A DNA stretch of 64,000 nt from Nitrososphaerota archaeon. GTDB taxonomy: Archaea > Thermoproteota > Nitrososphaeria_A > Caldarchaeales > Calditenuaceae. The notes under the pieces were generated by a model. The model saw only the letters and a program-made list of their open reading frames with translations. It ran no database searches and was not told the DNA's origin. Shown one piece after another: positions 25,810 to 43,722 of the stretch (positions within the stretch are counted from its first letter, which is position 1; every line of letters starts with the position of its first letter). The stretch lies in assembly GCA_009889515.1 (NCBI GenBank), contig WUQR01000139.1, positions 186,001-250,000 of the forward strand, read 5' to 3'. Position numbers and translations under genes: made by a program.

Positions 25810-25875
25810 ACCTCAATCACTCTCATCAGAGCAGGGAGTTCTAGAATAAATGCTAGCGCCGAAGCATCTTCTCTC

Positions 25876-26745: not shown

Positions 26746-26833
26746 TCCTATCCCCTGCAGTTTGGCTGGCGATGACTATCCATCCTATCGGCATCACATA
26801 ATTGTTTCGTGCCGCCGCGTTTCTGTATTCCGA

Positions 26834-27682: not shown

Positions 27683-27830
27683 TGTGAACGACTGCTGTGG
27701 GGGGTAAAAGCCTTCCTAAATTAGAATCCTGCGTATCGTGGTTCATGACTGTTTCTGACCGTTTTAACAGTCTCTGGGGGTGCCGGGTAGGGGGTTGTTG
27801 GGAGTGGCTGGCTGCGGCGGGCAGGTCCTC

Positions 27831-28547: not shown

Positions 28548-28682
28548 CCCATAAGTGTGTTACCTAAGGCTTAGACCATCAGACTCTAGGTATTCCCTAA
28601 GGATAGCCGGGTCCCTAGGCTTCAAGCCCAGTTTTAATAGGGCTGGAGAACCATCATAACCTGCATCAGAGGCGTGGTCTCG

Positions 28683-28886
28683 ATGGTGCTGAGATGGCTT
28701 TTACGACTGCTTAGGACTGGTCGCCCCCCGAGGCGTATAGCCGTTACCCCGGAGGATCTCATGTATGCTGAGAGGATTCTTGGCGAGTTCTCGGAGGGTG
28801 ACAGGGTTTCACGATTGGAGGCTAGGCTTGATAGGGTTCGTAGGGAGATTGGCCGGCTTAGGGAGCGGCTTGGGAGTGGGTCGTAG
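28683..28886 (+). CDS. small coiled-coil hypothetical protein
   Basis: A 67-residue basic protein: a hydrophobic, arginine-rich N-terminus (MVLRWLLRLLRTGRPPRR) and a charged C-terminal helix (VSRLEARLDRVRREIGRLRERL) with heptad character. A GTG nine bases earlier is an alternative start. A TTTTAATA-like box near 28632 lies upstream. I do not recognise it. It precedes the importer operon and is possibly independent of it. Confidence 0.5.
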   Translation: MVLRWLLRLLRTGRPPRRIAVTPEDLMYAERILGEFSEGDRVSRLEARLDRVRREIGRLRERLGSGS

Positions 28887-28905
28887 GGGTATTTGAGAGG
28901 GTAGA

Positions 28906-28913
28906 TTTAAATA
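28906..28913 (+). promoter_or_regulatory. TATA box of the B12/siderophore importer operon
   Basis: TTTAAATA lies about 24-31 bases before the ATG at 28937, so transcription should begin within or just after the palindrome that follows. Confidence 0.6.
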
Positions 28914-28916
28914 CCG

Positions 28917-28937
28917 TTGGATGGAATATCCATCCAA
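28917..28937 (+). promoter_or_regulatory. palindromic operator overlapping the transcription start
   Basis: TTGGATGG, a five-base spacer (AATAT), then CCATCCAA: a perfect 8-base inverted repeat lying between the TATA box and the start codon. The last A is the A of the ATG. A repressor bound here would block initiation. The regulator is not identified; metal (DtxR-like) or cobalamin-responsive ArsR-type proteins are candidates by analogy only. Confidence 0.6.
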
Positions 28938-30199
28938 TGTCTCTGGAGCGAAGAACCATACCGATAATCACAGCCTTGCTCGTCATAGGGTTCATAGCAG
29001 GTCTAGTGGTCGCCGCCTCCACACCGATAATTCCCCCACGCACCAGCACTCTCACCATCACTCAGACCAGAACAGAGGCCTACACCACCACAGTCCCCAT
29101 AGAAAGGACGACCACGTGGACCGCAACAACTACTCTCAGGCTGACTGAAACGACTCGTCAACTACCGCGCCTCCCACTCGAGCTAGAGGTCAAGTACTCT
29201 AAGCTTTTTGAGATAAAGCTGTTTGAGGGGTATAAGGTTGTCCGGGACGCTCTGAATAGGACGCTAATACTGGTGCCCCGTGGCCGCGAGCCGCCCGCGG
29301 ACATAAGCGGTGTGGTCGTCTACACTCCTGTAGAGAGGGTTGTCCTCATGTCTGCCACGCATGTGGCACTGGTTGAGCGGCTCAGAGAGTTTGCGCCGTG
29401 GATACTTGACAAGGTTGTGGGCATCATGTGGGGTGGGCAGTATGAATGGTATTTTGAGGAGGTGGCGGAGCGGCTCTCGAGGGGCGTGATAAAGGATGTT
29501 GGGCCAGACTACTCTCCCAACTTCGAGGAGCTCATAGCCCTCAAGCCCGACCTAGTCATCATCTACACCTTCCCCGGCTCAGACCTGCCCCAGCGGCTGG
29601 ACGAGCTCAAAATACCATACGTGGTAGACAACGAATACCTAGAGACTAGCCCTCTAGGCCGCTTCGAATGGATCAAACTGATAGCAACATTCTTCGACTT
29701 AGACGAGGAGGCATACAAAGTATTCGCGGAGGCTGAGAGGGAGGTTGGTGGCGTCGTCAACGATATTCAGAGGTCTGGGCTCGGTGCCCCGCTCGTGTGC
29801 TGGCTCATGGTCTACAGGGGGACCGTGTATGTTGCAGGTGGAGAGTCCTTCCCAGCCAATGCTCTGAGGATGCTTGGTGCTAGGTATGCCTTCTCCGATA
29901 TTAGGTCGACTGGCAGCGTCACGGTCAACATCGAAGAGGTGCTGTCAAGGTGTAGGGACGCGGATGTCGTAGTCTATCCGACCAGTTTCGTCTCCTCTCT
30001 CTCAGACATCCTGTCCGAGGCGCCCGAATTAAAGGAGATCAAGGCATTCAGGGAGGGGCGAGTATACGCCTACTCTCCCACTGTATACCAGCTGGGATAC
30101 TACGACACCGAGGGCTGGGTTAGGAGCCTGGCAATCATACTCTACCCAAACCTATACCCGGGTGGTGAGGCGAGGTACTTCGTGAGGCTGGGAGGCTGA
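28937..30199 (+). CDS. cobalamin/Fe3+-siderophore ABC transporter substrate-binding protein
   Basis: A 420-residue extracellular binding protein of the BtuF/FhuD family. An N-terminal membrane helix (residues 10-32) is followed by a Thr/Ser-rich linker typical of archaeal surface proteins, then the binding domain from about residue 85 with LIALKPDLVIIYTFPGSDLPQRLDEL and VAGGESFPANALRMLGARYAF. The ligand, cobalamin or an iron chelate, cannot be told from sequence alone. First gene of the three-gene operon, downstream of a palindromic operator. Confidence 0.85.
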   Translation: MSLERRTIPIITALLVIGFIAGLVVAASTPIIPPRTSTLTITQTRTEAYTTTVPIERTTTWTATTTLRLTETTRQLPRLPLELEVKYSKLFEIKLFEGYKVVRDALNRTLILVPRGREPPADISGVVVYTPVERVVLMSATHVALVERLREFAPWILDKVVGIMWGGQYEWYFEEVAERLSRGVIKDVGPDYSPNFEELIALKPDLVIIYTFPGSDLPQRLDELKIPYVVDNEYLETSPLGRFEWIKLIATFFDLDEEAYKVFAEAEREVGGVVNDIQRSGLGAPLVCWLMVYRGTVYVAGGESFPANALRMLGARYAFSDIRSTGSVTVNIEEVLSRCRDADVVVYPTSFVSSLSDILSEAPELKEIKAFREGRVYAYSPTVYQLGYYDTEGWVRSLAIILYPNLYPGGEARYFVRLGG

Positions 30200-30201
30200 G
30201 G

Positions 30202-31269
30202 GTGGTGAGACTATTGAGCCGGAAGGTTTTGACAGAGTTGGGTGTCGCGGCCGAGTTTAAGCCCAAGCGGAGAGGGCGGGTGCTGCTTCTCCTCTGCCTC
30301 CCCCTCGCACCACTATTTATCGCCTCGATAGTTCTCGGCGGCTACGCAATCCATCCGTGGGATGCGTTGATGGCTTTGGCTGGTGGTGGCGGAGCCGAGG
30401 AGTCGCTCATAGTCCAATCCATCAGGCTTCCTAGGACTCTGGCTGCGATGCTTGGTGGAGCTTCCCTAGGAGTAGCCGGGGCCATACTTCAGGCCCTTTT
30501 CAGAAATCCGCTGGCCGACCCCTACATACTGGGTGTCTCGGCAGGCTCAAGCCTCTTTCTCGCCATCTCAATCTTCACGGGAGCGACACTCGGCCTCTGG
30601 ACGCCAACAAGTCCATACTCCCTCTACACCGCCGCCTTCATAGGAGCCCTCACAGTGGTAATAGTCATGGTCGCCCTCTCCGGAGTCGTGCGCACCACCA
30701 CGACAATACTTATTGCGGGCATAATGTTCTCATATCTCGCATACGCCATAACCAGCATCCTCCAGATCTTCGCCGACATCGAGAGACTCAGGGCCTTCAC
30801 ATACTGGATCATGGGGAGCTTCTCAGGCGCTAGGTGGAGCATCTTAAGCCCAGGCCTACCCCTCCTTCTTGTCTTCCTATTTGCGACGATATTTCTCTGC
30901 AAGCCTCTGAACGCCCTTCTCTTGGGTGAGGATTATGCGAGGAGTATGGGGATGAACCTGAATAGGGCGAGGATGTTTATAGTCGCAGCAGCAGCCCTAC
31001 CGGTCTCGATAGTCACGACCATAGCCGGCTCAGTAGGCTTCATCGGCCTCTCAGCACCCTACTTAGCCCGTCAGCTCACACGAACATCAAACCACTTCAC
31101 AATCATCCCCGCATCAGCCCTCCTCGGCTCAACCCTCGCCGCAGCCGCCGACCTACTCTCACGCCTCGCCTTCAAACCAATCGAGATACCGATAACAGCG
31201 GTAACAGCACTCTTCGGCGCGCCCTTGGTAATCTACCTCCTCCTAAAAGGACGAGGTGTACAGGTTTGA
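30202..31269 (+). CDS. BtuC/FecCD-family ABC transporter permease
   Basis: A 355-residue permease with about ten membrane helices. Family segments are RLPRTLAAMLGGASLGVAG near residue 74, LFRNPLADPYILGVSAGSS, YWIMGSFSGARW and the coupling region GSVGFIGLSAPYLARQL. It would form the membrane channel with the downstream ATPase. It starts three bases after the binding-protein gene and overlaps the ATPase by four bases. Confidence 0.92.
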   Translation: MVRLLSRKVLTELGVAAEFKPKRRGRVLLLLCLPLAPLFIASIVLGGYAIHPWDALMALAGGGGAEESLIVQSIRLPRTLAAMLGGASLGVAGAILQALFRNPLADPYILGVSAGSSLFLAISIFTGATLGLWTPTSPYSLYTAAFIGALTVVIVMVALSGVVRTTTTILIAGIMFSYLAYAITSILQIFADIERLRAFTYWIMGSFSGARWSILSPGLPLLLVFLFATIFLCKPLNALLLGEDYARSMGMNLNRARMFIVAAAALPVSIVTTIAGSVGFIGLSAPYLARQLTRTSNHFTIIPASALLGSTLAAAADLLSRLAFKPIEIPITAVTALFGAPLVIYLLLKGRGVQV

Positions 31270-32480
31270 TCGAGACTGTCAACCTGTCGGCGGGGTATGG
31301 TGGGAGGCCTGTCGTAGCCGGGGTTAACATCTCGGTTAGGGGTGGCGAGTTTGTAGCCGTGATAGGCCCTAACGCGGCTGGAAAGACTACGCTCCTGAAA
31401 ACACTTGCTCGTCTGATGAAGCCCCTAGGTGGCGTGGTGTATGTTGACGGAGCTGCTGCCGCGAGGATGAGTGCGAGGGAGATTGCCCGGCTCGTGGGGG
31501 CTGTGCTCACTGAACAATTGCGTCCGACGCAGCTCACAGTCTTCGAGGCTGTCTCGCTAGGCAGATACCCCTACACCAACTCGCTACACACTCTAACCGA
31601 TAGGGACAGGAGGGAAGTCTGGAGGGCCCTAGCCGACGCGGGCATCGAACACCTGGCGGACAGGCGGCTAAGCGAGCTCAGCGACGGGCAGAGGCAGAAG
31701 GTGATGATAGCGAGGGCCTTGGCTCAGGAGCCCAAAGTCCTCATACTCGATGAGCCAGTAACCTACCTCGACCCGAAGGCGAGGGTGGAGATACTTCTAA
31801 CGATTAAGCGGGTCGCTAGGGAGAGGGAAATAGCCGTCATAGCCTCGCTCCACGAGGTTGAGCTAGCCCTCAGGATGGCTGACCGTCTATTAATCGTGTC
31901 GGGAGGCAGAGTCGTGTTATACGACTCGCCGGAGGAGTTCGTAGCTCTTGGCGGCCCCATGCACCTCTACGGACTAGACGGGCAGCTAACCTTTTCTCCA
32001 GAGCTCATGTCAGTCGAGTTTAGGCCCGGGGCGGAGGATAAGCCGCGACTTTTCGTGGTGGCGGGTGGTGGGAGCGGGGCTCTAGTCTACAGGATGCTCG
32101 CCAGGCTAGGCTACCAGTTCTCTACAGGCGTGCTACACAAGGGAGACATAGACTACTGTGTAGCGGCCCTGCTCGGAGGGGTGATTATTGCCGAGCAGGC
32201 TTTCCAACCCATAAGCCCAGAGAACGTGCACCGAGCGCTCGAAGAGGCCCGGGACTGCGCCGCGGCAATCTACACCTCACCGCCAATAGGCCCCCTGAAC
32301 TCAGAGAACCAAATACTCGCCGAGACAATAGCCCTACAGGGCATCCCACTCATCGTACTCGGCCCAGCCGAGGTCAAGGGAGCGGCGATAAGGGTGGAGA
32401 GCCTTGCCGAACTCTCAAAATCGATAGAAATGGTCCTAGAGAATGTTCGTGCGGTTGAGCCAGCTCCGGCAAGGCGTTAA
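31266..32480 (+). CDS. BtuD-like ABC transporter ATPase with C-terminal extension
   Basis: A 404-residue ATPase. Residues 1-250 are the FecE/BtuD module: Walker A GPNAAGKTT, signature LSDGQRQKVMIARAL, Walker B VLILDEPVTYLDP and the switch His in ASLHEVELAL. Residues 255-404 are an extra Rossmann-like domain (VVAGGGSGALVYRMLARLGY). Long BtuD proteins of this kind are known in haloarchaea, where they serve cobalamin uptake, so B12 is the favoured ligand. That is inference. Confidence 0.88.
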   Translation: MIETVNLSAGYGGRPVVAGVNISVRGGEFVAVIGPNAAGKTTLLKTLARLMKPLGGVVYVDGAAAARMSAREIARLVGAVLTEQLRPTQLTVFEAVSLGRYPYTNSLHTLTDRDRREVWRALADAGIEHLADRRLSELSDGQRQKVMIARALAQEPKVLILDEPVTYLDPKARVEILLTIKRVAREREIAVIASLHEVELALRMADRLLIVSGGRVVLYDSPEEFVALGGPMHLYGLDGQLTFSPELMSVEFRPGAEDKPRLFVVAGGGSGALVYRMLARLGYQFSTGVLHKGDIDYCVAALLGGVIIAEQAFQPISPENVHRALEEARDCAAAIYTSPPIGPLNSENQILAETIALQGIPLIVLGPAEVKGAAIRVESLAELSKSIEMVLENVRAVEPAPARR

Positions 32481-32530
32481 CACACCACCCGCTGTAAATA
32501 TATCCCTCCGACACATCATCCCCACTTAGA

Positions 32531-33157
32531 TTGGTATCCCATCTAGTCGACTTCTTCAAGGGAATACAATTACTCTTGGCTGGACAGGTACATGTCACAC
32601 AGCTGGATGTTGGGAGCGTTGAGATGTTGTGTGGCCTCGACGTCTCCTACAGGGGGGAGGAGGGTGTAGCAGCTGCTGTCCTATGGTCCAAAACTGGGAG
32701 GAAGGTGGTAGAGACAGTAACGTTTCGTGGAGATGTCTTCTTCCCCTACATCCCCGGGCTGCTATATGCCCGCGAAGCCCCCTTAATGCTAGCTGCCATC
32801 AAGCGGCTGTCAACAAGGCCTCATCTACTCCTAGTTGATGGTCATGGTCTAGCCCACCCGAGGAAGGCGGGCCTCGCCAGCATCGTCGGCCTACTCGCCG
32901 ACACACCATCGGTGGGTGTTGCGAAATCGCTTCTCTACGGTGAGACTAGGGTTGAGGATGGTGTGGAGTATCTTGAGGCTGGAGGAGAGAGGGTAGGTGT
33001 AATTCTTAGAGGGAAGGGTGGTAGGAGATACTATGTGAGCGTGGGCCACATGGTTGATGTCGAGTCTGTGTTGAGGCTGGTTAACTCTGTGGGGTGCGAC
33101 CTAATTGCGCCCCTTAAGGAGGCCCACAGGATTTCTAAGATTGCTCTGAGGGGTTAG
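32531..33157 (+). CDS. nfi: endonuclease V (deoxyinosine-specific repair nuclease)
   Basis: A 208-residue EndoV that nicks DNA near deoxyinosine or RNA at inosine. Active-site motifs are visible: CGLDVSYRG with the metal Asp, FPYIPGLLYAREAPL with the catalytic Glu, and LLVDGHGLAHPRKAG with the second Asp. The later VGVAKSLLYGE is also typical. A TATA-like taaatatat near 32494 lies about 30 bases upstream. Its 3' end overlaps trxB by 23 bases, tail to tail. Confidence 0.9.
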   Translation: MVSHLVDFFKGIQLLLAGQVHVTQLDVGSVEMLCGLDVSYRGEEGVAAAVLWSKTGRKVVETVTFRGDVFFPYIPGLLYAREAPLMLAAIKRLSTRPHLLLVDGHGLAHPRKAGLASIVGLLADTPSVGVAKSLLYGETRVEDGVEYLEAGGERVGVILRGKGGRRYYVSVGHMVDVESVLRLVNSVGCDLIAPLKEAHRISKIALRG

Positions 33158-34154
33158 AGCCGGAGACCACTTCTACCCGTCCAGCACGATACTCCTTCTC
33201 AAGCCTCTCTGGATGTCCCTCCTCTATGAATCTTATCGCCTCCATCGCAGCCATGCATCCAAAACCAGCAGCCGTTATCGCCTGCCTATACCTCTTATCG
33301 TGGACATCGCCAGCCGCGAAAACACCCTTAACACTCGTCTCGAAGTTATTATACAGTTTAATGTATCCCTCCTCGTCTAGTTCCAACTTACCCCGCAGAA
33401 ACTCAGTATTAGGCGCGTGGCCTATTGCGACGAACACTGCGTTGCAAGGTATAACCTTCTCCTCACCCGTCAGCTTGTTCTTGACCTTGACCCCCTCAAC
33501 CCTCTCACTCCCCAACACATCCACTACAACGCTATTCCACACAAACTCTATTTTCGGGTTTGAGAGGGCCCTCTCCTGCATAATCTTCGAGGCCCGGAGC
33601 TTATCCCTCCTGTGGACAACCACCACCTTCTCAACTAGCTTGGATAGGAAGAGGGCATACTCCATGGCAGAGTCGCCGCCGCCAACAACGACGGCACACT
33701 TCGCCCCCCTGAATAACGGGCCGTCACATGTTGCACAACTGGATACGCCGCGCCCTAGCAAGCGCTTCTCAGACTCAAGCCCGAGCCACTTCGGCGACGC
33801 TCCAGTCGCAATTATCACGGCCTTGGCGAGGAAGGTCCGATCAGAGGTTATTATCTTCCTTGGATAGGTGCTGAAATCCACGTCCACCGCGTCGTCATAT
33901 ACGATCTCCACTCCGGCGTTCTCTGCCTGCCTCCTCATGCTCTCCATCAAGTCAGGCCCTTGGACTCCGTCAGGGAATCCGGGAAAATTCTCGACTACGC
34001 CTGTTAACATGAGCTGTCCACCCGGCGTGACTCCCGCTATTATAACCGTCTTGAGGTTTGCTCTAGCGGCGTATATACCAGCGGTGTATCCGGCGGGTCC
34101 GGACCCGATTATAACTATGTCGTATAGGCTGTCAGCGGCTTCTGGCTCCATCAC
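33135..34154 (-). CDS. trxB: thioredoxin reductase
   Basis: A 339-residue FAD/NAD(P)-dependent flavoprotein. It has the FAD motif IVIIGSGPAGYTAGIYAA, the redox-active SCATCDGPLF pair, the NAD(P) motif CAVVVGGGDSAMEYALFLS and the C-terminal FAD site GVFAAGDVHDKRYRQAITAAGFG. It would reduce a thioredoxin- or glutaredoxin-like partner. Start is GTG 34154 or ATG 34151. It is divergent from the Zn-ribbon membrane gene and shares a promoter zone with it. Confidence 0.93.
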   Translation of the reverse strand: MMEPEAADSLYDIVIIGSGPAGYTAGIYAARANLKTVIIAGVTPGGQLMLTGVVENFPGFPDGVQGPDLMESMRRQAENAGVEIVYDDAVDVDFSTYPRKIITSDRTFLAKAVIIATGASPKWLGLESEKRLLGRGVSSCATCDGPLFRGAKCAVVVGGGDSAMEYALFLSKLVEKVVVVHRRDKLRASKIMQERALSNPKIEFVWNSVVVDVLGSERVEGVKVKNKLTGEEKVIPCNAVFVAIGHAPNTEFLRGKLELDEEGYIKLYNNFETSVKGVFAAGDVHDKRYRQAITAAGFGCMAAMEAIRFIEEGHPERLEKEYRAGRVEVVSGSNPSEQS

Positions 34155-34173
34155 ACGTTAAGTTACACTGCTC

Positions 34174-34184
34174 ACATATATATC
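34174..34184. promoter_or_regulatory. shared TATA region between divergent trxB and Zn-ribbon gene
   Basis: catatatatcc is nearly symmetric and lies about 23 bases from the trxB start and 15-25 bases from the GTG at 34199. It could serve either direction. Confidence 0.4.
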
Positions 34185-34198
34185 CATGAGCGCAACAC

Positions 34199-34672
34199 GT
34201 GGATTTCGTGGGCAAGAGGCTCCGGCTCTTCAGATGCACAAACTGCGGGTATGAAGTCTATCTCCAAGCATGGAAGGCCGAGTGCCCCTCATGTAGAAGC
34301 GGATTCACCCTAGTCATGGTGGCGAGCGAGGAGAAGAGGACTAGGCCGGCGCTCTTGGGGTATATTCCTCCAATAATAGCGGTGTCCTATCTACTCCTCA
34401 TAATCCTGAATCCCAGTATAACCGTGGCGCGACTTCTCCCCTGGCCCCTAGCCGTGATTGCTACCCTCGCAGCATTGGCACTCTCCATCACATCCTCGAC
34501 CTTGGGAAACCTCTCAGCGGCGGGAATTGGCGCAGCACTTGCAATAGCACACATAGTCTTCCTAGGCCAGCAGCCGCTAGTGGAGGCCGGTATCGCAGCC
34601 CTCCCAATCGCGCTCGCAGCCTCAAGCATCATAAACGAGGCCGCCATCAGGAGGGTGGGGCTGCGGGGTTAG
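34199..34672 (+). CDS. zinc-ribbon membrane protein
   Basis: A 157-residue protein with an N-terminal rubredoxin-like zinc ribbon (FRCTNCGYEVYLQAWKAECPSC) and about four membrane helices from residue 55 onward. The ribbon would lie at the cytoplasmic face. Proteins of this build are common in archaea but have no settled function. Start is GTG. It is followed 13 bases later by another small gene on the same strand. Confidence 0.6.
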   Translation: MDFVGKRLRLFRCTNCGYEVYLQAWKAECPSCRSGFTLVMVASEEKRTRPALLGYIPPIIAVSYLLLIILNPSITVARLLPWPLAVIATLAALALSITSSTLGNLSAAGIGAALAIAHIVFLGQQPLVEAGIAALPIALAASSIINEAAIRRVGLRG

Positions 34673-34685
34673 AGGTGAAGGCTGA

Positions 34686-35012
34686 ATGGGTCTCTATGTG
34701 ATAGAATTCTTCGTCCAGGGTAGGGGCTGGGTGGGGCAGGAGGAGTTCGGACTAAGCGGCGGACTATCGACGAGAGAGGAGGCCGAGAACGTCGCGTCAT
34801 ACCTTATAGACACGATGATGAAGAGTGCCACTCACCCTTACGGCTCTAGGATCGGAGACGTTGTAGGATTCAGGATAATCGAGTCGGAGGGGGTTGAAAG
34901 AATGACTCCGCGCCCCGAGGCATCTAGGTTCAGGTTCAGCGAGGTAAAACACAGGTTCTTCAAGCGCGGCGAAGCATACATACTCTACAAGTATTGGAGC
35001 TGGCCAGACTAG
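34686..35012 (+). CDS. hypothetical soluble protein
   Basis: A 108-residue cytosolic protein I cannot assign to a family. It begins MGLYVIEFFVQGRGWVGQEE and ends with an aromatic tail (YILYKYWSWPD). It is aromatic- and charge-rich with no Cys motif, signal or membrane segment. It is probably co-transcribed with the zinc-ribbon gene 13 bases upstream. An A-rich tract follows the stop, then the convergent Hsp20 gene. Confidence 0.5.
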   Translation: MGLYVIEFFVQGRGWVGQEEFGLSGGLSTREEAENVASYLIDTMMKSATHPYGSRIGDVVGFRIIESEGVERMTPRPEASRFRFSEVKHRFFKRGEAYILYKYWSWPD

Positions 35013-35043
35013 CGTTTAAAAAAATGGATGCTCAGGAGCCCAG

Positions 35044-35610
35044 CTACTCGACCTTTATGGTCTTCGGCGGGTGACCGCCTCCCTTCTTGGGCAAAACCAC
35101 CTCGAGGACTCCGTTGTTATAAGTGGCCTTAGCCTTCTCGGGCTCAACCTCCTCAGGCAGGTCCAGCTCCTTGTAATATTTCCTAGTCTCTGTGTCAACC
35201 TTGATGATGAGTCTGGAGTCGCGCACAGTCAGGTTAATGTCCTCCTTCCTGACGCCTGGGACCTCGGCTACCACTTTTATCTGCTCATCCTCGACTATCA
35301 TGTCGACTAGCGGCTCCCTCTCCACGGTGAGGGCTGGGAGTTCTCCGCGCCTGCTCGGCCTGACGTTCCCGAACTCCCTGACGACTGGTCGCCCATCAGG
35401 GCCTATCGTTATTGAGTATCCATAGACTATCGGGCCTATCTCCCTCCGCACCCCAGTCGGGGTCCTAACCTCCCTCACCAGCTCCTTGGGCCACTCCCTC
35501 TCAAACCTTCTAAACTCCTCCTCAAACCAGCGCTCAAACTCCCTCATCATCTCATCGATGAACTCGAAGGGCCGGAAGAACCTCCTCCTACGCCACCATT
35601 CTTCACTCAT
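35044..35610 (-). CDS. Hsp20/alpha-crystallin small heat shock protein
   Basis: A 188-residue small heat shock chaperone. The alpha-crystallin domain spans about residues 95-180, with VVAEVPGVRKEDINLTVRDS, the ELDLPEEVEPEKAKATYNNG strand turn and the signature GVLEVVLPKKGG. The N-terminal arm is long and rich in Arg, Phe and Glu (FFRPFEFIDEMMREFERWF). It would hold unfolding proteins as an oligomer. A gatttaag-like TATA lies upstream on the minus strand. Confidence 0.92.
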   Translation of the reverse strand: MSEEWWRRRRFFRPFEFIDEMMREFERWFEEEFRRFEREWPKELVREVRTPTGVRREIGPIVYGYSITIGPDGRPVVREFGNVRPSRRGELPALTVEREPLVDMIVEDEQIKVVAEVPGVRKEDINLTVRDSRLIIKVDTETRKYYKELDLPEEVEPEKAKATYNNGVLEVVLPKKGGGHPPKTIKVE

Positions 35611-35887
35611 GAGGCATCTTAAATCATATCAACACAACCAGGGATTTAACTGTTAACTTCTTAGCTTGTGTGGGAATCTCTATAACCCTGTCCTCAAAGT
35701 GGACTATACCAATACTCTTCCATCAGATATAAGGATTTTAACCCCCAACAAGCTTAGGTCGTAGCACTGCTGCCTGGATCTTCCGGGTTCTCTGGTGGAG
35801 TGCCGCCCGGCCAACTTCCCCTATTTTTCCTTCTTGTCCTAATTCTCCTGTTCACTCTCTTATTATTCCCTTCATTAGTGATTTTGG
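35611..35887. other. AT-rich intergenic, no gene seen
   Basis: Between Hsp20 and the broken gene downstream the sequence is AT-rich with no convincing reading frame, RNA gene or repeat. It marks the left edge of the lower-GC island. Confidence 0.45.
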
Positions 35888-36280
35888 TTGTTTAGATCTG
35901 GGGTGTTCTGTTCTGTCGGGCCTCAACCGTTTATATCCACTACTCCCAATTCGAGCAACCGTGAGTGGTTGGAATATTCGTCTAAAGGGTATAGGCCCTG
36001 GCGGACTTATGTCAGGTTTGATGAGCCGCTATCCGAGAGAATTGCCAAGCTGAAGGAGTTTGAGCTGAGGGACGACGAGGGCGATGTTTGCACTGGAGTA
36101 TTAGAGGCCAAGGAGACTGAGGTGGGTGGATGATACATATTTCATATACTGCTGAAGAGATGAGAGAGTGTTCTATGGCGTCATCCACATCCACAATAGT
36201 GGAGGCCCTTCGACGATAAGGTCATCAAGTATGTCTACAAGGTTGTGAGGGGCTGGAACGTGAGAGCATCACCCCGCATA
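35888..36280 (+). pseudogene. decayed gene fragment
   Basis: An 81-residue reading (35888-36133, with YRPWRTYVRFDEPLSERIAKL) ends in a stop. Protein-like sequence continues just after it in shifted frames: VFYGVIHIHNSGG near 36170, then a tail PFDDKVIKYVYKVVRGWNV near 36205-36260. This suggests one gene broken by frameshift and stop. The parent family is not recognised; a possible faint likeness to the 41392 gene (TYVR.DEPL) is too short to trust. Confidence 0.35.
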
Positions 36281-36640
36281 TGAAAAAAATAATATTATAA
36301 TTGACACAACTATTATGATTGTTATTGCTATTGCCGAGAGTATTGAGCGTCTTGAGGCGTACCATCTTGGGTCCTTGAGAGCCGTCTCACGCCACGCCCA
36401 AGGCCTCTTCCTCCGTAGACCATAAGCTATAAGGAAGTTGTGGACTGCCATAGACCCGTATATCGGCGGAGCTACATATAACCAATACCAACCACGAGGC
36501 CAATATACGTCTAAGTTTAAGAGCAGAGCAAATGGACCAAGTAAAGTAGGTATTAAAAACATCAATCCCAACATTATGTGATATACTGCAATTCTCCTAG
36601 CTCTCTTCCAATCATAATCCATAGACATGGTCGCTAACAC
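36269..36640 (-). CDS. small membrane protein beside halocin-like gene (candidate immunity protein)
   Basis: A 123-residue protein with three membrane helices (near residues 18-42, 48-68 and 98-120) and a basic N-terminus (DYDWKRARRIAVYH). It starts 21 bases downstream of the cysteine-rich 36662 gene on the same strand, so the two are probably one operon. By position it could give self-protection or help export of the peptide. That is inference; no family is recognised. Confidence 0.55.
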   Translation of the reverse strand: MLATMSMDYDWKRARRIAVYHIMLGLMFLIPTLLGPFALLLNLDVYWPRGWYWLYVAPPIYGSMAVHNFLIAYGLRRKRPWAWRETALKDPRWYASRRSILSAIAITIIIVVSIIILFFSYAG

Positions 36641-36661
36641 CTATCAAAAGGGTTTGACAAC

Positions 36662-37672
36662 CTACCGACAGTACGAGTAACACCCCGTAAAACAGAATGG
36701 ACAAGATACTAGGGTGCATACGAGGCAAAGCGCAACACCTACACCCGTAGACGCATATGCGCATGCGATCCAACATGTCCAGCAAGTGAGCACCACGCAT
36801 CTGGCTAAGCAGATTCCGCAGCCTAGAGGATCATGGCTCCCATAGGTAACCTCTCTGGTTATTCCATCTTTACTCGCGAATCCGTGTTGGTGGCCATCTG
36901 GAGAAATATAAGACGCTAGAGCCACTTTTTCATCCTTCAGCGGACCCTCTATGCCTCTTATGAAGAGCAGTTGGGGGTCCCCCTCACCTCTGAATGGTAT
37001 TTGTACTTTGAGAAAGACCAGCTGTGTCTCACCAGCCTGGGCAAAAATATGCTCCACGCTAGCGTCATTGATCTGAGGCGTGAAGGAATTTCTGATTAGC
37101 CAGTGCATTGCATTTAGGAAGTCATTATCAGAGATGACACCCCCTAAGATATTCCTTTTTTCTTCACCAGCTACTCGTCTTGTCTCAATTATTCTTATAG
37201 GTCTTTCCCGCTGTTCTCCGAGAGTCTTGGGAATAAGCCAAGACCCTAGCAATGCGTAAAATGCTAATAAGACCCCGCCCCTAATTAGGAAGTTTAATGT
37301 TCGACGTTTAGCCACATTAATCGCTATAGTTCCATTATTACAGCATATGTTTGACCTCAACGACCTCCTGAGCACCCTGTGATAGTCGAGATAAGATGCA
37401 AAAAGCCTCACAGCATTCTTGAGACCCACCAGACTAGCTATTTTAAAAGCTGCCCTGATACCATAACTCACCTGTATATAGCTTCCATCTTGCTGAATTA
37501 GAAAGAAGCTGTTGGGAGGGTGTTCACCATATAGTTTATGGAGCAACTCTTTCGATTCGCCGCTGTCAAGCGGTAATGCCCTTATTAACCCATAAGAATA
37601 TTTTTTCACATCAGTGGCAAGTCTCCGACATATAGCACATTTATCGTCAAAAATGAGGGTGACGTTTTTCAA
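36662..37672 (-). CDS. DCC thiol-disulfide domain protein with halocin C8-like cysteine-rich C-terminus
   Basis: A 336-residue protein. Residues 1-105 resemble the DCC (DUF393) thiol-oxidoreductase family, with CAIC at residues 12-15. Residues 126-147 form a membrane helix. A linker domain follows. Residues 285-335 hold 12 cysteines in a hydrophobic, Gly/Trp-containing stretch (CGICLARCVVLTCWTC is its start). Halocin C8 is likewise made as a long precursor whose C-terminal peptide has many disulfides and whose N-terminal part gives immunity. This could be a related thermophilic bacteriocin precursor. Family assignment of the C-terminus is inference from cysteine pattern and layout. Confidence 0.6.
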   Translation of the reverse strand: MKNVTLIFDDKCAICRRLATDVKKYSYGLIRALPLDSGESKELLHKLYGEHPPNSFFLIQQDGSYIQVSYGIRAAFKIASLVGLKNAVRLFASYLDYHRVLRRSLRSNICCNNGTIAINVAKRRTLNFLIRGGVLLAFYALLGSWLIPKTLGEQRERPIRIIETRRVAGEEKRNILGGVISDNDFLNAMHWLIRNSFTPQINDASVEHIFAQAGETQLVFLKVQIPFRGEGDPQLLFIRGIEGPLKDEKVALASYISPDGHQHGFASKDGITREVTYGSHDPLGCGICLARCVVLTCWTCWIACAYASTGVGVALCLVCTLVSCPFCFTGCYSYCR

Positions 37673-38048
37673 ATACCGCTACCCTCCATATACTAAGCAT
37701 TACTTACCTTTCTTTTATTTTTTGGTATGTGGTGTCCAAATATAAGGGAGGTCATTTAAGGTCTGATGGAGTCTATCACAGTCCTTTTTAAGAGTCTTCA
37801 TATTTTGTATAGTTAGCATTTTAGCGACAACATCTTAAATGAGGCAGTCTTCAGTACCGTGAAAGTGGGCTGTGTCGGGACACTTGTCAATTTATTAGGC
37901 CTGATAGAGATTGGTGCCGTCTTGATAATCCTCTCCAGAATGTAAGCGCATATGAGAGAGCCCATTCGGTAACAGGCCTGTCGCGGATACAACCACCTTA
38001 AATGAGAATATGAACTAAGCTTAAGTAGAAGTTGACAATACAAGCTTA
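37673..38048. other. 376-base AT-rich divergent intergenic region
   Basis: Lies between two divergent genes of the island and should hold both promoters. It is rich in A/T (for example cttttattttttggtatg near 37708) but I see no reliable open frame. A 76-codon frame on the minus strand lacks protein-like composition and was not called. Confidence 0.45.
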
Positions 38049-38681
38049 GTGATGATAATCCATGTAGATAGGAAACTTTTATCGATCAAAGAAAGAAAAA
38101 GCATGATTATGTTGGGGTTGATTGTACTATCAGCATTAATCATTATATTATCTTCAAGTTTTCTACTATCAACAATGTGGTCACGGAGTATTCAAACACC
38201 GGGAGGATGGAGCGTGCAGCGCGATTTAAGTAATTTTATGGTTCTTCATATAGGCGGTGGTAAGTTGGCGTCTGAAGTTGTTAAAGAGCTTGAATTTAGA
38301 GGGGCTCGTATAACATCTTTAGCAGATATTCCGGGAGATGTGGCGCTGAGCGCTAACACGTTGGTCGTATTCGGAGGCGAGTGGTTCGAGAAGAGTTTGA
38401 GTGATCCTAGGCTACTTGTCTTCCTTAGAAATGCTGCTTTAAGCGGTGCGAAGCTAGTTATGATAGGTGGGGCTACCTCCAAGTTCTTCGTGGCCTTGGA
38501 AATGGCTGGATTGGATAAGATTACTACAGAGACAGGGGTCGTAAGAAACCCCGCTTACTTCGACCCGCCTCAGGTAGGCTTTAAGATGGAGCGCGAAGGA
38601 GATCATTCACATCCCTCCATCCTCATCAGCAACAGCAGTAACGTTAGTTCACTAGTGGAGGCCCTTCTAGGATGGTTGTAG
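38049..38681 (+). CDS. membrane-anchored Rossmann-like hypothetical protein
   Basis: A 210-residue protein with one N-terminal membrane helix (residues 19-44) and an outer or inner domain of alternating strands and helices: FMVLHIGGGKLASEVVKELEFRG, NTLVVFGGEWFEKSL and SGAKLVMIGGATSKFF. The pattern resembles flavodoxin- or glutamine-amidotransferase-like folds without their catalytic residues. It is divergent from the halocin-like gene and shares the low-GC island, so a joint role is possible. Function unknown. Confidence 0.6.
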   Translation: MMIIHVDRKLLSIKERKSMIMLGLIVLSALIIILSSSFLLSTMWSRSIQTPGGWSVQRDLSNFMVLHIGGGKLASEVVKELEFRGARITSLADIPGDVALSANTLVVFGGEWFEKSLSDPRLLVFLRNAALSGAKLVMIGGATSKFFVALEMAGLDKITTETGVVRNPAYFDPPQVGFKMEREGDHSHPSILISNSSNVSSLVEALLGWL

Positions 38682-39044
38682 GTGTTGTATTATGGCTAAG
38701 TCTGGGATGCACCTTAATATAAGATAGTTCTTGCCAAGCGTAGCCTCAATCCTGAGCAAAGGAGACCAATCATGCTTCTTAGAGAACCAGTGGTCATGTT
38801 TCTGACCCCATGACAAAAACTCGCTGACGGTGCTATTATCACGCTCTATCTCTCCGTTCTTAGTAAATGCCTGGAATCCCATGTGATAGGTTTATTTTGT
38901 TACACTATTTTCGCCGTGATGTCTATTTGTTTAAATGTATGTGCTGGTTTTTCTGGTTTTGGATAGTGCAAGCCTCTTAGATGGGGGTTTGCCCGACTGG
39001 CCAGGCGTTCTACGAGGCAGGAGGTTAGCCGAGATACCCCTCTA
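38682..39044. other. 363-base gap, possible remnant only
   Basis: No firm gene. A 71-codon minus-strand frame (38667-38882) has Trp- and His-containing protein-like text but no family I know, and it overlaps the end of the gene before it. The interval forms the right edge of the AT-rich island. Confidence 0.4.
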
Positions 39045-39626
39045 ATGGTGGTGAGAGATGTTTTTGTCCCTGCGCGCACCTTTACTAGCCGGATGACCAG
39101 GCCATTCAACTTGATAGCGACAACCCTTAGAGGGCAGGAGGTCCTGGGTGTAGCAACACTATCAAGCCTCCTGGGCGAGATGGGTGACGAGAACCCCCAG
39201 GTGGAGATAACCAAGATTCAGGGCGTCTTAACGGCCTACACTCGGCTAGACCCATTCCAGGTCGTCGAGAGGGCTAGAGAGATTGCAGCCAAGGAGCCCA
39301 TCAAGGTGGAGGGCATCATGAGGCTGATACCTGTAGAGCTTGTGGCCCAAAGCAAGATTGAGGAGATAGCCGCGACTGTAGACCGGCTGAAGGACAAGAT
39401 ACCGCCTGATGCGACGTATAAGGTGGTCGTGGAGAAGCGGCACACGCAGCTCTCGAGCCGCGAGGTGATAGAGGCGGTAGCGGCCAGGGTGGACCGCAAA
39501 GTGAACCTCGAGAACCCCGACTGGATAGTGCTAATAGAGGTCCTCGGAGGTGTCACTGGAGTATCGGTACTCAGGCCCTCACAGATCCTTAGTCTTGGAA
39601 AAACCGAGCCACGTCCAAGCGGTTAA
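39045..39626 (+). CDS. THUMP-domain RNA-binding protein (Tan1-like)
   Basis: A 193-residue protein of the archaeal THUMP family related to yeast Tan1. It has FNLIATTLRGQEVLGVATLSSLL near the N-terminus and the THUMP core TYKVVVEKRHTQLSSREVIEAVAARV...VNLENPDWIVLIEVLGG. Tan1 helps an acetyltransferase make N4-acetylcytidine in tRNA; a similar RNA-binding adaptor role is likely. No acetyltransferase gene is in the window. The ATG at 39045 is chosen but a small upstream extension cannot be ruled out. Confidence 0.82.
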   Translation: MVVRDVFVPARTFTSRMTRPFNLIATTLRGQEVLGVATLSSLLGEMGDENPQVEITKIQGVLTAYTRLDPFQVVERAREIAAKEPIKVEGIMRLIPVELVAQSKIEEIAATVDRLKDKIPPDATYKVVVEKRHTQLSSREVIEAVAARVDRKVNLENPDWIVLIEVLGGVTGVSVLRPSQILSLGKTEPRPSG

Positions 39627-39658
39627 AGGATTTATTGTATCTGGGCCCATCTTATGCT

Positions 39659-40129
39659 ATGCAGCACGGAGAAAAGAATAGAGAGTATGAGGTGGAGGTT
39701 GAGCTTCAGTTATCGCCGATGCTGAAGCTTAGGGTTCGGGGCTCGGTTGAGGCGTCGGGGCTGGGGGAGGCCGTGGCGCTCGCCCAGCAGTCGGTGGGGC
39801 ATCTCGCACAAGAACACGCACCTTCGGCCCAGCAGGCAGCCAAGAGGTTTCCGCAGGACCTCCTACAACACCTCGAATCACTCACGTATAGGGAGCTTGT
39901 CGAGCTGCTACTCTACTATGAGGGGCCCATGAGTAGGGAGCAGATAAACCAGAGGACGCGGGAGCTGGGGAAGGAGGTGCCGAAGAGCTGGCTTGACACC
40001 GAGTTCTTCAGAAAGCCCTACAAGGACCACTTCGTGGCCGACACCGACCAGTCGGGAGTGAAGATCTACAGGCTCTCCGAGAAGGGTAAGCTCGAGGCTG
40101 AGGAGATAATAAAGCGGCTGAAAGGGTAG
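39659..40129 (+). CDS. hypothetical protein with possible winged helix
   Basis: A 156-residue protein. After a beta-strand start (YEVEVELQLSPMLKLRVRG) it has helices and a C-terminal part that looks like a winged-helix domain (LTYRELVELLLYYEGPMSREQINQRT, ending VKIYRLSEKGKLEAEEIIKRL). I do not know the family. The start at 39659 is favoured because tttattg at 39631-39637 is likely the TATA box. It is downstream of the Tan1-like gene on the same strand. Confidence 0.55.
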   Translation: MQHGEKNREYEVEVELQLSPMLKLRVRGSVEASGLGEAVALAQQSVGHLAQEHAPSAQQAAKRFPQDLLQHLESLTYRELVELLLYYEGPMSREQINQRTRELGKEVPKSWLDTEFFRKPYKDHFVADTDQSGVKIYRLSEKGKLEAEEIIKRLKG

Positions 40130-40138
40130 GTGGGCTGC

Positions 40139-40576
40139 CTACCTCTTAGCGGATAGCGCTTTAACAAACTCTAATACTTCAGACCGCAGAGGGTTGTTTG
40201 GGGATGAGCTCTTAAGCCACTGATGTAGGTGGTTGACGAAAGAGTCGAGGAAGCCTTCGGGGTCAGATACTACGCCTGACAGGGCATTGACAGGGATATT
40301 GTCCACCGAGATCACCCTCATCCGCGAATCCATGAAGGGGCCGAACTCACCCCTCGATACGCTCAGGACCACTATCCTGCCTCCCTCAGCGATGTATGAG
40401 ATTCCCGCCACCCTGGCCAGCTCGAAGCCCCACTCGATTCCCGGCGGGCATAGGTCCTTGATCTGATTTATCAGCTCGTAGGCCTTTTCATAACCCCCCT
40501 TCTCCTTGAGCTCCCTGACTGCTGCCATCACCTTCTCCGCTCTCTCTGCTGGACTGGGCATCGACACCCTCCACAC
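40139..40576 (-). CDS. hypothetical protein overlapping xpf
   Basis: A 145-residue soluble protein with helical N-terminus (AERAEKVMAAVRELKEKGGYEKAYELINQIKDLCPPG) and a mixed alpha/beta end. No family is recognised. Its 5' end overlaps the 3' end of the XPF gene by 89 bases on the same strand, in another frame, so the two are translated from one transcript. The overlap suggests the real start may be the internal codon at about 40561. Confidence 0.5.
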   Translation of the reverse strand: MWRVSMPSPAERAEKVMAAVRELKEKGGYEKAYELINQIKDLCPPGIEWGFELARVAGISYIAEGGRIVVLSVSRGEFGPFMDSRMRVISVDNIPVNALSGVVSDPEGFLDSFVNHLHQWLKSSSPNNPLRSEVLEFVKALSAKR

Positions 40577-41267
40577 CAGCTTGGCTGGGCTCCGTATAAA
40601 CCGTGTTTACGGCTACATGCATCTTCTTTATCGTGGTTGAAGGTATTCTGCGCCCCCCAACCTTTACATCCCTGAGCGCCTTCTCGACTTCAAGTATCGG
40701 GCGGTTGTGGAAGATGGCTATAACGTTTCCCAGCGTCTTGAACTGGGCTAGGAGGGCCTTGGCTGTCTTGTGTCCGCAGAGGCCCTCAAGCGTGTAGAGC
40801 GCCTGCTCTTGGGGTGTCATCTCCCTACCACTGACCCTCAAAGGATACTCTCTAAGCCTCTCCTCCTCGCCCAGCCTCTTATGCTTCCACACCAGATAAG
40901 TGAGCGTGGCCCTTACGTCGGGCGTGGGTATAATCGGTATCCCCCACTCCAGCACGATCCGGTCGATCAGCCCGAGAACCGCTGTCTCATTCCACTTACT
41001 CTTCCTATAAAGCCCCAGGTAGCCCTCAAGAATAAGCAGCTTCTCACCCTCGAAGCTCTTGAGGGCGGTAAGCTGGTCCCACAGCCTACCCTTCAAGCTG
41101 TTTAGAAAGTCGAAGATCCTCTTCCTCTCTATGAGCGCCTGTCCCCTCGAGCCGAGTATCAGGTAGTCTCCCGCCTCCAAGGGCTTGACGGCGACTTCCA
41201 CCACTTTTTTAAGAGCCTCAACCATCTTAGAGTTCTCAGAGGCCTCATTAGCGTCTACGACTATCAT
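40488..41267 (-). CDS. xpf: XPF/ERCC4-family structure-specific endonuclease
   Basis: A 259-residue short archaeal XPF that cuts branched DNA such as flaps and forks. The nuclease domain starts IVVDANEASENSKMVEAL and has the signature LIERKRIFDFLNSLKGRLWDQL (ERK triad). A helix-hairpin-helix region follows (TLEGLCGHKTAKALLAQFKTLGNV). It lacks the helicase domain of euryarchaeal Hef, which is the crenarchaeal/TACK pattern. The last 35 residues are Gly/Ser/Glu-rich and disordered; such tails often carry a PCNA-binding site. Confidence 0.87.
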   Translation of the reverse strand: MIVVDANEASENSKMVEALKKVVEVAVKPLEAGDYLILGSRGQALIERKRIFDFLNSLKGRLWDQLTALKSFEGEKLLILEGYLGLYRKSKWNETAVLGLIDRIVLEWGIPIIPTPDVRATLTYLVWKHKRLGEEERLREYPLRVSGREMTPQEQALYTLEGLCGHKTAKALLAQFKTLGNVIAIFHNRPILEVEKALRDVKVGGRRIPSTTIKKMHVAVNTVYTEPSQAGVEGVDAQSSRESGEGDGSSQGAQGEGGL

Positions 41268-41391
41268 TTTGACCCTCTCTCATAACTGAGTTAAGGTTAT
41301 TTAAACCGCTATGTAGTAAGATTTAGCGTCCGTTTGGCGGAGAATGATTGGCTCGCGGGTCGTGGCCGAGCTGCTTGGCGAGTGATGAGGA

Positions 41392-41919
41392 ATGAATCTT
41401 AGCCTCAGGGAGAGGATAGAGTTGATGAGGCAGGGGATTATTCAGAGGGCAATTTTACCGCTCCTTGAGATGCGCGGGTTCTTTCCATCTGCTTGGAAGC
41501 GCCCAATCTCCCTGGAGGATATGGAGCTCCGGGAGGATGGCTGGGTCCCATTCTACACGCGGTACACGACTTGGGAGACCTATGTGAGGGATGAGCCGCT
41601 CAACCTCTACTTCAACACCTTCTACGGGGATGTCCATGAGAAAGCGTACAGATTCTGCTTTGTCGAATACATCCTGCCGTGGCCTAACTACGACTTGGAC
41701 AGAAGGCTTGTGGGTGTGTTCACTAGGCTGAATCTTAAGGGCGGTGGGTATGTCTGGAAATGTAAAAGAATGGTGGACATAACCTCCCCCGACAGCGCCC
41801 TAGTGGATATTGAGAAGAACTATGACGAACTCCTACTCGCCCTGATGGACGCCAACGTCGTGGATGCGGCGGTGAACCAGGCCAAGGGTGAGGGAAAGCA
41901 CAGGCGACACCGCCCTTAA
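41392..41919 (+). CDS. hypothetical protein
   Basis: A 175-residue soluble protein rich in Trp, Tyr and Phe (DGWVPFYTRYTTWETYVRDEPLNLYF, FCFVEYILPWPNYDLDRRLVGVF). No known motif. The C-terminus is basic (GKHRRHRP). It could be a nucleic-acid- or lipid-associated protein, but I see no evidence for either. A run of six T follows the stop at 41930-41935. Confidence 0.5.
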   Translation: MNLSLRERIELMRQGIIQRAILPLLEMRGFFPSAWKRPISLEDMELREDGWVPFYTRYTTWETYVRDEPLNLYFNTFYGDVHEKAYRFCFVEYILPWPNYDLDRRLVGVFTRLNLKGGGYVWKCKRMVDITSPDSALVDIEKNYDELLLALMDANVVDAAVNQAKGEGKHRRHRP

Positions 41920-41925
41920 AAAAGG

Positions 41926-41937
41926 CACATTTTTTGA
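41926..41937 (+). terminator. T-run after the 41392 gene
   Basis: Six T in a row 11-16 bases after the stop codon, in an A-rich then T-rich setting, fits an archaeal U-tract terminator. Confidence 0.4.
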
Positions 41938-41975
41938 GATGGTAGGAAGGTGTAAGTCTACGGAGGTGGCTACAC

Positions 41976-42485
41976 ATGTATCAGATACTTGTTGTGGGCT
42001 ATAACGAGGATTCCTGTACCGACGTAGCTAGGGCTTTAGCCTATGAGGTGGGTGCGGAGGTTGCGCGGCGTGGACATATTCTTCTGACGGGCGGGCTTGG
42101 TGGAGTGATGGCCTCGGCGGCGAGGGGAGCCTACGAGCACGGAGGCATCACTGTATCTATCCTGCCCCAGAAGGACACCTCGCAGGCCAACCCCTATAGC
42201 ACTGTCAAGATCGCGACGGGGCTAAGCCACATGAGGAACATGGTTAATGTCTGGTCGGCGGACGGTGTCATAGTGGTTGGCGGAGGTGCGGGAACCCTCA
42301 TAGAGGTCGCGGCGGCCTACTTGGAGGAGAAACCCGTCGTCGCCTTAGTGGGCTCAGGGGGCGTAGCGGATGAATACGCTGGCAAGTATTTAGACGATAG
42401 GCACAAGACTCTCATACACACTGCACAGACTCCCAAGGAGGCTGTCGAGAAGGTCATCCGGCTAATTGAGGGGTCACGACCCTGA
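41976..42485 (+). CDS. LOG-family (TIGR00725-like) nucleotide-binding protein
   Basis: A 169-residue Rossmann-like protein of the lysine-decarboxylase-like (LOG) superfamily. It shows ILLTGGLGGVMASAARGAYEHGG and a glycine-rich nucleotide/phosphoribosyl site DGVIVVGGGAGTLIEVAAAYLEEKPVVAL. Relatives that activate cytokinins hydrolyse nucleotide monophosphates at PGGxGTxxE; the GGGAGTLIE here is a variant. It may bind or hydrolyse a nucleotide, exact substrate unknown. Convergent with the Lrp gene, overlapping by 32 bases. Confidence 0.78.
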   Translation: MYQILVVGYNEDSCTDVARALAYEVGAEVARRGHILLTGGLGGVMASAARGAYEHGGITVSILPQKDTSQANPYSTVKIATGLSHMRNMVNVWSADGVIVVGGGAGTLIEVAAAYLEEKPVVALVGSGGVADEYAGKYLDDRHKTLIHTAQTPKEAVEKVIRLIEGSRP

Positions 42486-42873
42486 GAACCATCGCCGTGT
42501 TAGTTTCCTTCACACCCTGAATCATCCTAATCTCCTCAATACACCTGTTAAGCTCTGCGATGCTATCCATAGAGATAATGACTAAGGCGTCATATTCTCC
42601 TGTGATCTCGTAGACCTTCTCGACCCCCCGGACCTTCGCAAGCTTCTCGGCGACGACGGGGGTTGGGACAGAGGGGTCTACAGAGATCATGGATATTGCT
42701 TGGACCTGCTGGGGCTTCTCAACCTCAATTGTGAAGCGCTTTATGACTCCAGCCTCTATCAGCCTCTTCACCCTCTTCCTGACGGTCCCCTCCGAGACCC
42801 CGAGCTCTTTACCTATTGACTGATAGCTCCTCCTAGCGTCAAGCCTCATCAACTCTATGATTTTTCTATCCAT
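42454..42873 (-). CDS. Lrp/AsnC-family transcriptional regulator
   Basis: A 139-residue Lrp-type regulator. It begins MDRKIIELMRLDARRSYQSIGKELGVSEGTVRKRVKRL, the HTH, and ends in a RAM effector domain (VRGVEKVYEITGEYDALVIISM). Effectors are usually amino acids. The longer open frame upstream has no Lrp-like sequence, so the ATG at 42873 is used. Lysine- and arginine-type regulation would be plausible given the biosynthesis cluster, but the genes are not adjacent. Confidence 0.85.
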   Translation of the reverse strand: MDRKIIELMRLDARRSYQSIGKELGVSEGTVRKRVKRLIEAGVIKRFTIEVEKPQQVQAISMISVDPSVPTPVVAEKLAKVRGVEKVYEITGEYDALVIISMDSIAELNRCIEEIRMIQGVKETNTAMVLRVVTPQLAG

Positions 42874-43051
42874 CTCGTCCAGCCCAGCTCCCAAGCCCCT
42901 CAGCTCACAGCTAAACCCCCCTAACCGATAATAGAGTTTTCTCCACCCCACCTCGAGCTGCGTCCGATAATTTTCCCTATATACCCAAGAAATCCCCCAC
43001 CCGCTAGATCCTGCTCCCTTAAAATATGGGGGGTGCGGAAGGGCGGGTGGA

Positions 43052-43291
43052 ATGGAGGTAATCGAGATTATACCGCTCATAGGCCCTGCGCGGAGGTTCA
43101 AGATCGAGGTGTCTCTCAACGAGCGTGTAGAACAGCTTATAGACCGGGTTTCGAGGGAGATAGGCGTCTCTGGAGCCTTCTTTAAACTTGTGGGTAGGGG
43201 GAAGGTGATAGACGAGGCTGCTGAGGTGGGTGAGGTCATAAGGGAGGTGGGGAAGACTTTCTACTTCTACCCAGAGGTTATGGGCGGCTGA
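43052..43291 (+). CDS. ubiquitin-like beta-grasp protein ending in Gly-Gly
   Basis: A 79-residue small protein. From residue 46 it lines up without gaps with the last 34 residues of human ubiquitin: LVGRGKVIDEAAEVG against LIFAGKQLEDGRTLS, then both end in Gly-Gly with no extra tail. The N-terminal half has the beta-hairpin-helix pattern. It could be a protein modifier or a sulfur carrier (SAMP/MoaD-like); the PEVMGG end also recalls MoaD. No E1, E2 or JAMM gene is close. A ttaaaatatgg TATA lies near 43020. Its 3' end overlaps the VKOR gene by 25 bases, antisense. Confidence 0.7.
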   Translation: MEVIEIIPLIGPARRFKIEVSLNERVEQLIDRVSREIGVSGAFFKLVGRGKVIDEAAEVGEVIREVGKTFYFYPEVMGG

Positions 43292-43722
43292 GTCCAGATA
43301 TGTGCTAGGTAGGCTGCTGCAAAGATCCCTGCCCCTGCTGCGTGCGCAAAGGTGCAGAGCAGGCATATACTCCCTATCATGAATATCTCGACGAAGAGTA
43401 GGGCCAGAGCGCCGAGAACGCCTAGGACCGACCAGTATAGGAGGATGTTCCCAACCCTGAGCCCAGCCACCGCTGCCAAGGACAGGGCTAGGGCCCCTCC
43501 AAACCATAAAGCCCCAACAGCTGCAACAGGTATGCCCATGAATCTGGAGTACTCGCTGTGGATTACCGTCACGCAGGAGAATCTGCTCCCAACCTCGCAG
43601 AACTGGGGGAGCTCGCCCGGTGAGACTAGATAGATCGAGAGGGGGAGACCTGCGGCTGAGAGGATGGCTGAGGATAGGTACGCCATGCGTGGAGGCGACC
43701 AGTGGCCCAAGCCACCTATCAC
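43267..43722 (-). CDS. VKOR-family disulfide-forming membrane protein
   Basis: A 151-residue four-helix VKOR homologue, the archaeal/bacterial partner that re-oxidises a secreted thioredoxin-like protein by passing electrons to quinone. It has the loop cysteines in CEVGSRFSCVTVIHSEYSRFMGIP and the active CLLC pair in ICLLCTFAHAAG. It overlaps the TlpA-like gene by four bases and should act with it in folding exported proteins. Confidence 0.87.
   Translation of the reverse strand: MIGGLGHWSPPRMAYLSSAILSAAGLPLSIYLVSPGELPQFCEVGSRFSCVTVIHSEYSRFMGIPVAAVGALWFGGALALSLAAVAGLRVGNILLYWSVLGVLGALALLFVEIFMIGSICLLCTFAHAAGAGIFAAAYLAHIWTQPPITSG

Follow-up and report, generated by a model that had tools for sequence, protein, structure and literature searches.

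Two adjacent genes on the reverse strand, one for a Cys-rich precursor protein and one for a small membrane protein, lie in an AT-rich island of the 64-kb window, by which we mean the whole stretch of DNA analyzed (Table 1). The island has a GC content of 44.5% versus 54.7% in the rest of the window, with dips to 0.39-0.48 across this region. It is flanked by an HSP20 gene (35044-35610) and a gene for a THUMP protein (from 39045), which are adjacent in both same-genus genomes. The blocks aligned by blastn on either side (22291-35610; 39036-43605) almost abut in those genomes, 77 bp apart in G002 and about 97 bp apart in G005. Because the site is empty in both, the island was either gained here or lost in both relatives, and gain is the simpler scenario, which suggests horizontal acquisition of the precursor/membrane-protein pair. 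The sequence-only reading of this DNA had described an AT-rich island beside a broken gene, and this description holds: the drop in GC is measured, and broken sequence lies in the left part of the island.

Table 1. Features of the island and of the two genes, in window coordinates.
Feature	Position	Strand	Basis
AT-rich inserted island, 3.4 kb	35611-39035		blastn: absent from two same-genus genomes (G002, G005)
Small membrane protein with 3 helices (119 aa when started at the conserved ATG)	36269-36628	-	bacterial parallel; second copy 68-69% identical
Gene for the 336-aa precursor (DCC domain, Tat-like anchor, linker, Cys-rich tail)	36662-37672	-	TTG start, ORF intact
Hydrophobic Cys-rich tail, precursor residues 285-336	36665-36820	-	second copy keeps Cys; likeness to Thermomicrobium tail
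Linker, precursor residues 149-284	36821-37228	-	without detectable homology
KRRTLNFLIRG twin-arginine-like motif and membrane helix, precursor residues 120-148	37229-37315	-	aligned with bacterial anchors
DCC1-like thioredoxin-fold domain, precursor residues 1-105	37358-37672	-	Pfam, profile, AF2/Foldseek
GGAGGG Shine-Dalgarno-like motif	37682-37687	-	sequence reading; 9-nt spacing to TTG start of precursor

The precursor frame is open throughout and encodes the parts first read from it, namely a DCC-type N-terminus with CAIC (residues 12-15, within FDDKCAIC), a membrane helix, and a C-terminus with 12 Cys, all of which fall within the last 52 residues and many of which form CxxC pairs. Against Pfam PF04134 the DCC domain scores 21 bits (E 8.5e-4), under the gathering cutoff of 27.8 bits, while sequence and AF2/Foldseek together reveal two traits of PF04134-type proteins, the thioredoxin fold and a DxxCxxC close to the N-terminus. 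The structure prediction of the whole precursor that had been suggested as a check is confident for the DCC domain alone (pLDDT about 89, versus <50 for linker and tail), and the top Foldseek matches of this domain are thioredoxins, including the best PDB match (probability 0.99). The anchor aligns with bacterial (S/T)RRxFL anchors in which R122 is nearly invariant and L126 invariant; TIGR01409 has weak matches in the bacterial relatives of the precursor, and TatC is encoded in the same genome (128 bits). A thioredoxin reductase-like gene (33135-34154; pyridine nucleotide-disulphide oxidoreductase, CATC) is located about 2.5 kb from the membrane-protein gene. It stands on the conserved flank and is probably a core gene, and it could feed or drain electrons of the DCC domain.

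A decayed second copy of the tail and membrane protein is found on the same contig (C139:508066-508530; 69% DNA identity), with no DCC part, a frameshifted tail, and a truncated membrane protein. Up to the frameshift this copy keeps 8/8 Cys versus 12/30 identical non-Cys residues, and the remaining Cys turn up in the next frame. Between the two membrane proteins dS is 1.78 and dN is 0.205, the latter inflated by a few non-homologous codons at the end of the aligned stretch, for a dN/dS of about 0.12. Conserved Cys and membrane-protein dS/dN together make the observation more than chance, and since Cys are kept and dN/dS is low, selection has acted on both the Cys positions and the membrane protein. 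The second copy holds exactly these two elements, so tail and membrane protein travel together.

The second copy also bears on the start of the membrane-protein gene, which was first called as a 123-aa ORF (36269-36640, reverse strand) from an upstream GTG. Since it conserves the ATG of MSMDYDW and not the GTG, the gene probably starts at 36628. The three-helix protein previously noted 21 bases downstream of the precursor is encoded by an open, adjacent frame, with a gap that is probably 33 nt. In 369 genomes of the phylum, the search for relatives of this protein returned only weak 16-20-bit matches, most with stops, and no sequence relation to small membrane proteins of bacteria was recognized, the likeness to these being one of position and topology.

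The sequence-only reading had also counted a divergent gene as part of a three-gene unit. This 210-aa frame (38049-38681, forward strand) is open and encodes a membrane-anchored protein of no known family. Its single good homolog, in another archaeon (genome G071, L080:7383-8066; 46% over 112 aa), has neither a Cys-rich nor a small membrane-protein gene beside it, and we rejected the divergent gene as a third component. An imperfect 24-nt direct repeat (88%) occurs towards either side of the island, at 36194-36217 and 38650-38673. The right copy forms the 3' terminus of the divergent gene, and the left copy lies in the broken sequence, possibly left over from a second copy of this gene.

The first lead to relatives of the precursor came from tblastn, in which its DCC part weakly matched Streptomyces plasmids (E 0.02-0.06). 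At these loci the DCC frame continues in frame into proteins annotated as 'bacteriocin fulvocin C-related', with tails that match the curated model NF033852 at 95-102 bits. On two of the plasmids (L020, NZ_CP108530.1; L021, NZ_CP109577.1) the annotated starts omit the in-frame N-terminal DCC domain; in Streptomyces records L024 and L025 the annotation includes it. The relatives gathered comprise plasmid proteins of Thermomicrobium roseum and Rubrobacter, 17 genome loci that came from one pattern confined to the DCC region, with the tail not in the query, and 12 genomes out of 158 in the class to which a Thermomicrobium-like bin belongs. Recovered by DCC-region patterns or whole-protein queries, the layout of DCC domain, Tat/TM anchor, linker, and Cys-rich tail occurs in Chloroflexota, Rubrobacter, Streptomyces, and other actinomycetes, and most of the collected relatives have a DCC domain, RR-anchor, linker, and Cys-rich end. 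The initial reading knew of no described system with such an architecture; that none exists is wrong at the sequence level, given these many bacterial relatives. Its proposal of an antimicrobial-type precursor that is rich in Cys, carries a fused thiol-disulfide domain, and has a small membrane protein as partner is supported by them, some with curated bacteriocin tails. In the open-access literature searched, outside which Makarova et al. 2019 (mBio) falls, we found no paper describing DCC-fused Cys-rich precursors.

The tails of these relatives are of fulvocin-like, halocin-like (by eye), Thermomicrobium, and other types, and L027 pairs a different tail with a DCC part 80% like the T. roseum one. 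This variety of tails behind like DCC parts is typical of modular toxins. A small-membrane-protein ORF (70-140 aa, at least 2 predicted helices) starts within 150 nt downstream of 15 of the 21 non-fulvocin precursors that have enough downstream sequence, the archaeal one included, versus 5 of 372 control ORFs (1.3%). The contrast is strong, though only a few genomes supplied the precursors and the controls and the rows are not independent. Thermomicrobium-like genomes (L022, L044, L046, L050, L051, L062, L063) each have several Cys-rich tail genes, many with a small TM gene of their own, and some of the tails in these genomes have no DCC part. An S8 protease gene, possibly for a processing enzyme, is located upstream at L022 and L023. 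Another tail type (L027:3686-5249 and L064) is followed by ABC transporter genes, for an ATPase and/or permease, rather than by a small TM protein.

Several comparisons place the archaeal precursor with this group. A profile of 25 bacterial precursor N-termini matches its residues 7-158 with 50.9 bits (E 5.7e-15) in a search of 685 ORFs, among which stand-alone archaeal DCCs score 10-16 bits and the others are not significant. The archaeal precursor has the DCC domain and RR-anchor by which we define the N-terminus of the bacterial family, as well as the Cys-rich tail of that family and, as in its non-fulvocin branch, a small 2-3-TM protein directly downstream. By N-terminus and layout, then, the archaeal precursor classifies as a member of the DCC-fused Cys-rich precursor family. 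The tail is probably related to the bacterial tails too: against the Thermomicrobium tail it gives a BLASTP E of 2e-5 as a single comparison and a z of 6.5 relative to composition shuffles (T. roseum), and by hhalign it scores 31.4 versus 11.7 +/- 2.7 (maximum 21.1) for 60 shuffled sequences. With the bias correction of HMMER, its comparison with the profile of bacterial tails falls short of significance (7.1 bits, bias 23), a test that the Cys richness limits, and hhalign scores of the linker against bacterial linkers fall inside the shuffled range.

The closest counterparts are WP_012642562.1 of the T. roseum plasmid and its unnamed Chloroflexota relatives, which share the complete layout. 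In T. roseum a 3-TM protein is encoded 9 nt downstream and the tail can be aligned with the archaeal tail over 40 residues; in contrast, the tail is longer and has more Cys, an S8 protease and a regulator are encoded upstream, and neither linker nor membrane protein is detectably homologous. The Streptomyces NF033852 precursors share the in-frame N-terminal DCC domain, Tat-like anchor, and Cys-rich C-terminus but have a fulvocin-type linker and a less hydrophobic tail with fewer Cys, and a small TM protein downstream is not systematically seen. PF04134 DCC1-like proteins share the DxxCxxC thioredoxin-fold domain, which in other Thermoproteota stands alone and here is fused. No other family member was found, by sequence or by profile, in 398 genomes of Thermoproteota, where a profile including the archaeal precursor recovered its own gene and otherwise 23-26-bit DCC matches. 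Proteins matched by the DCC part elsewhere in the phylum stand alone, and no Cys-rich tail was seen in them. No relatives turned up when viral and genome contigs were scanned with the whole protein, nor among phages. A match to genome G003 was rejected as a chance match to SRP54. In a DCC tree the archaeal precursor forms a long branch, with stand-alone archaeal DCCs to one side and the bacterial precursors to the other, a placement that does not indicate the donor lineage.

Halocin C8 is a Cys-rich hydrophobic peptide that forms the C-terminal part of a long precursor, and the locus had at first been taken for a halocin C8 relative. A Cys-rich C-terminal end is indeed common to the precursor, to halocin C8 (TIGR04449), and to the Gram-positive C8-like immunity-bacteriocin fusions (TIGR04450), but these models have no DCC domain, and the archaeal locus has a separate membrane protein. 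Searched with TIGR04449 (cutoff 24 bits), this genome yields no match at E<=10, though the model does find members in the same phylum and so works there, and neither TIGR04450 Gpos_C8_like (HMMER filters on) nor NF033852 lists the precursor at E<=10. We accordingly rejected halocin C8 membership. The TIGR04449 halocin C8-domain ORFs of the phylum (L011-L014, L016) belong to one other Thermoproteota family, and a DCC domain is absent from the frames read at L011, L012, L014, and L016. Divergence of a genuine halocin C8 member, in which the linker of the precursor confers immunity and the membrane protein is dispensable, would account for the shared plan and for the DCC relatives L056, L059, and L067, which look halocin-like by eye and of which L059 has a weak TIGR04450 match. 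We find it unlikely in view of these empty searches and of a tail closer to the Thermomicrobium type.

Our preferred reading, to which we give roughly two chances in three, is a horizontally acquired two-gene bacteriocin (archaeocin) module made up of a self-folding, Tat-exported Cys-rich peptide and its immunity protein. The DCC domain precedes the anchor and would therefore remain in the cytosol, where it may catalyze or proof-read the disulfides of the 12-Cys peptide at the C-terminus of the same precursor; the biochemistry of DCC domains is little studied. Since Tat carries folded cargo and TatC is encoded, these disulfides would form before export through the action of the fused domain. 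The internal twin-arginine-like anchor would then carry the folded tail across the membrane, and the tail, as the putative 52-residue mature peptide, would be cut from the linker and released in a compact, disulfide-locked, hydrophobic form to act on the membranes of competitors. The producer would be protected by the 119-aa membrane protein, a candidate immunity protein in view of where it is encoded, of its pairing with the tail in both copies, and of the parallel in bacteria. The sequence-only reading had left open immunity or export for this protein, and immunity fits better because the precursor itself bears a Tat-like anchor and TatC is encoded in the genome. An archaeal toxin that is exported and has a three-TM protein encoded downstream is known from the B310/C108 pair of Sulfolobus virus SSV9 (PMC8628083), which differs in that it is virus-borne, with a toxin of 310 aa that has a signal peptide; cysteine is not mentioned in the text of that paper.

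The 12 Cys could instead bind metal or Fe-S in a metal-binding or redox-storage membrane protein whose DCC domain keeps them reduced, which would suit the numerous CxxC pairs and the ability of DCC domains to reduce as well as oxidize. We consider this improbable, as like N-termini in bacteria carry quite different Cys-rich tails, including curated bacteriocins, the gene is an island gene of one species, and no match to a metal-binding family was obtained. Equally improbable is a relic, an acquired fragment out of use, to which the broken sequence in the island, the decay of the second copy, and the lack of relatives in the genus might point, but both ORFs are intact, there is a start signal, all Cys are kept, and the membrane-protein copies retain their low dN/dS.

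What would be new in the two-gene bacteriocin module is a disulfide catalyst built into the Cys-rich precursor of a bacteriocin, and by model this precursor is none of halocin C8, TIGR04450, or fulvocin. It appears to be the sole archaeal member found of a largely undescribed family of modular precursors with putative antimicrobial activity. For the broader proposal of a cross-domain toxin family, in which a cytosolic DCC foldase and an internal Tat anchor are kept while the Cys-rich tails behind them are exchanged, disulfides are folded before export, and the archaeal member is the only one in the Thermoproteota sampled, we judge the case evenly balanced.

To our knowledge, few archaeocins of thermophiles have been characterized. 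In Sulfolobales only two toxin-associated genes (sulfolobicin) have been characterized (PMC8628083). The locus offers an intact, testable archaeocin candidate with a probable immunity gene. The built-in DCC domain would tie a little-understood family of thioredoxin-fold proteins to a concrete role, and its fusion to the tail suggests how many-cysteine peptides fold ahead of Tat export. An N-terminal DxxCxxC, an RRxFL anchor, a Cys-rich end, and a small membrane protein downstream together provide a search signature with which unannotated bacteriocins of Chloroflexota and Actinomycetota can be mined; in these phyla the annotated start sometimes drops the DCC part.
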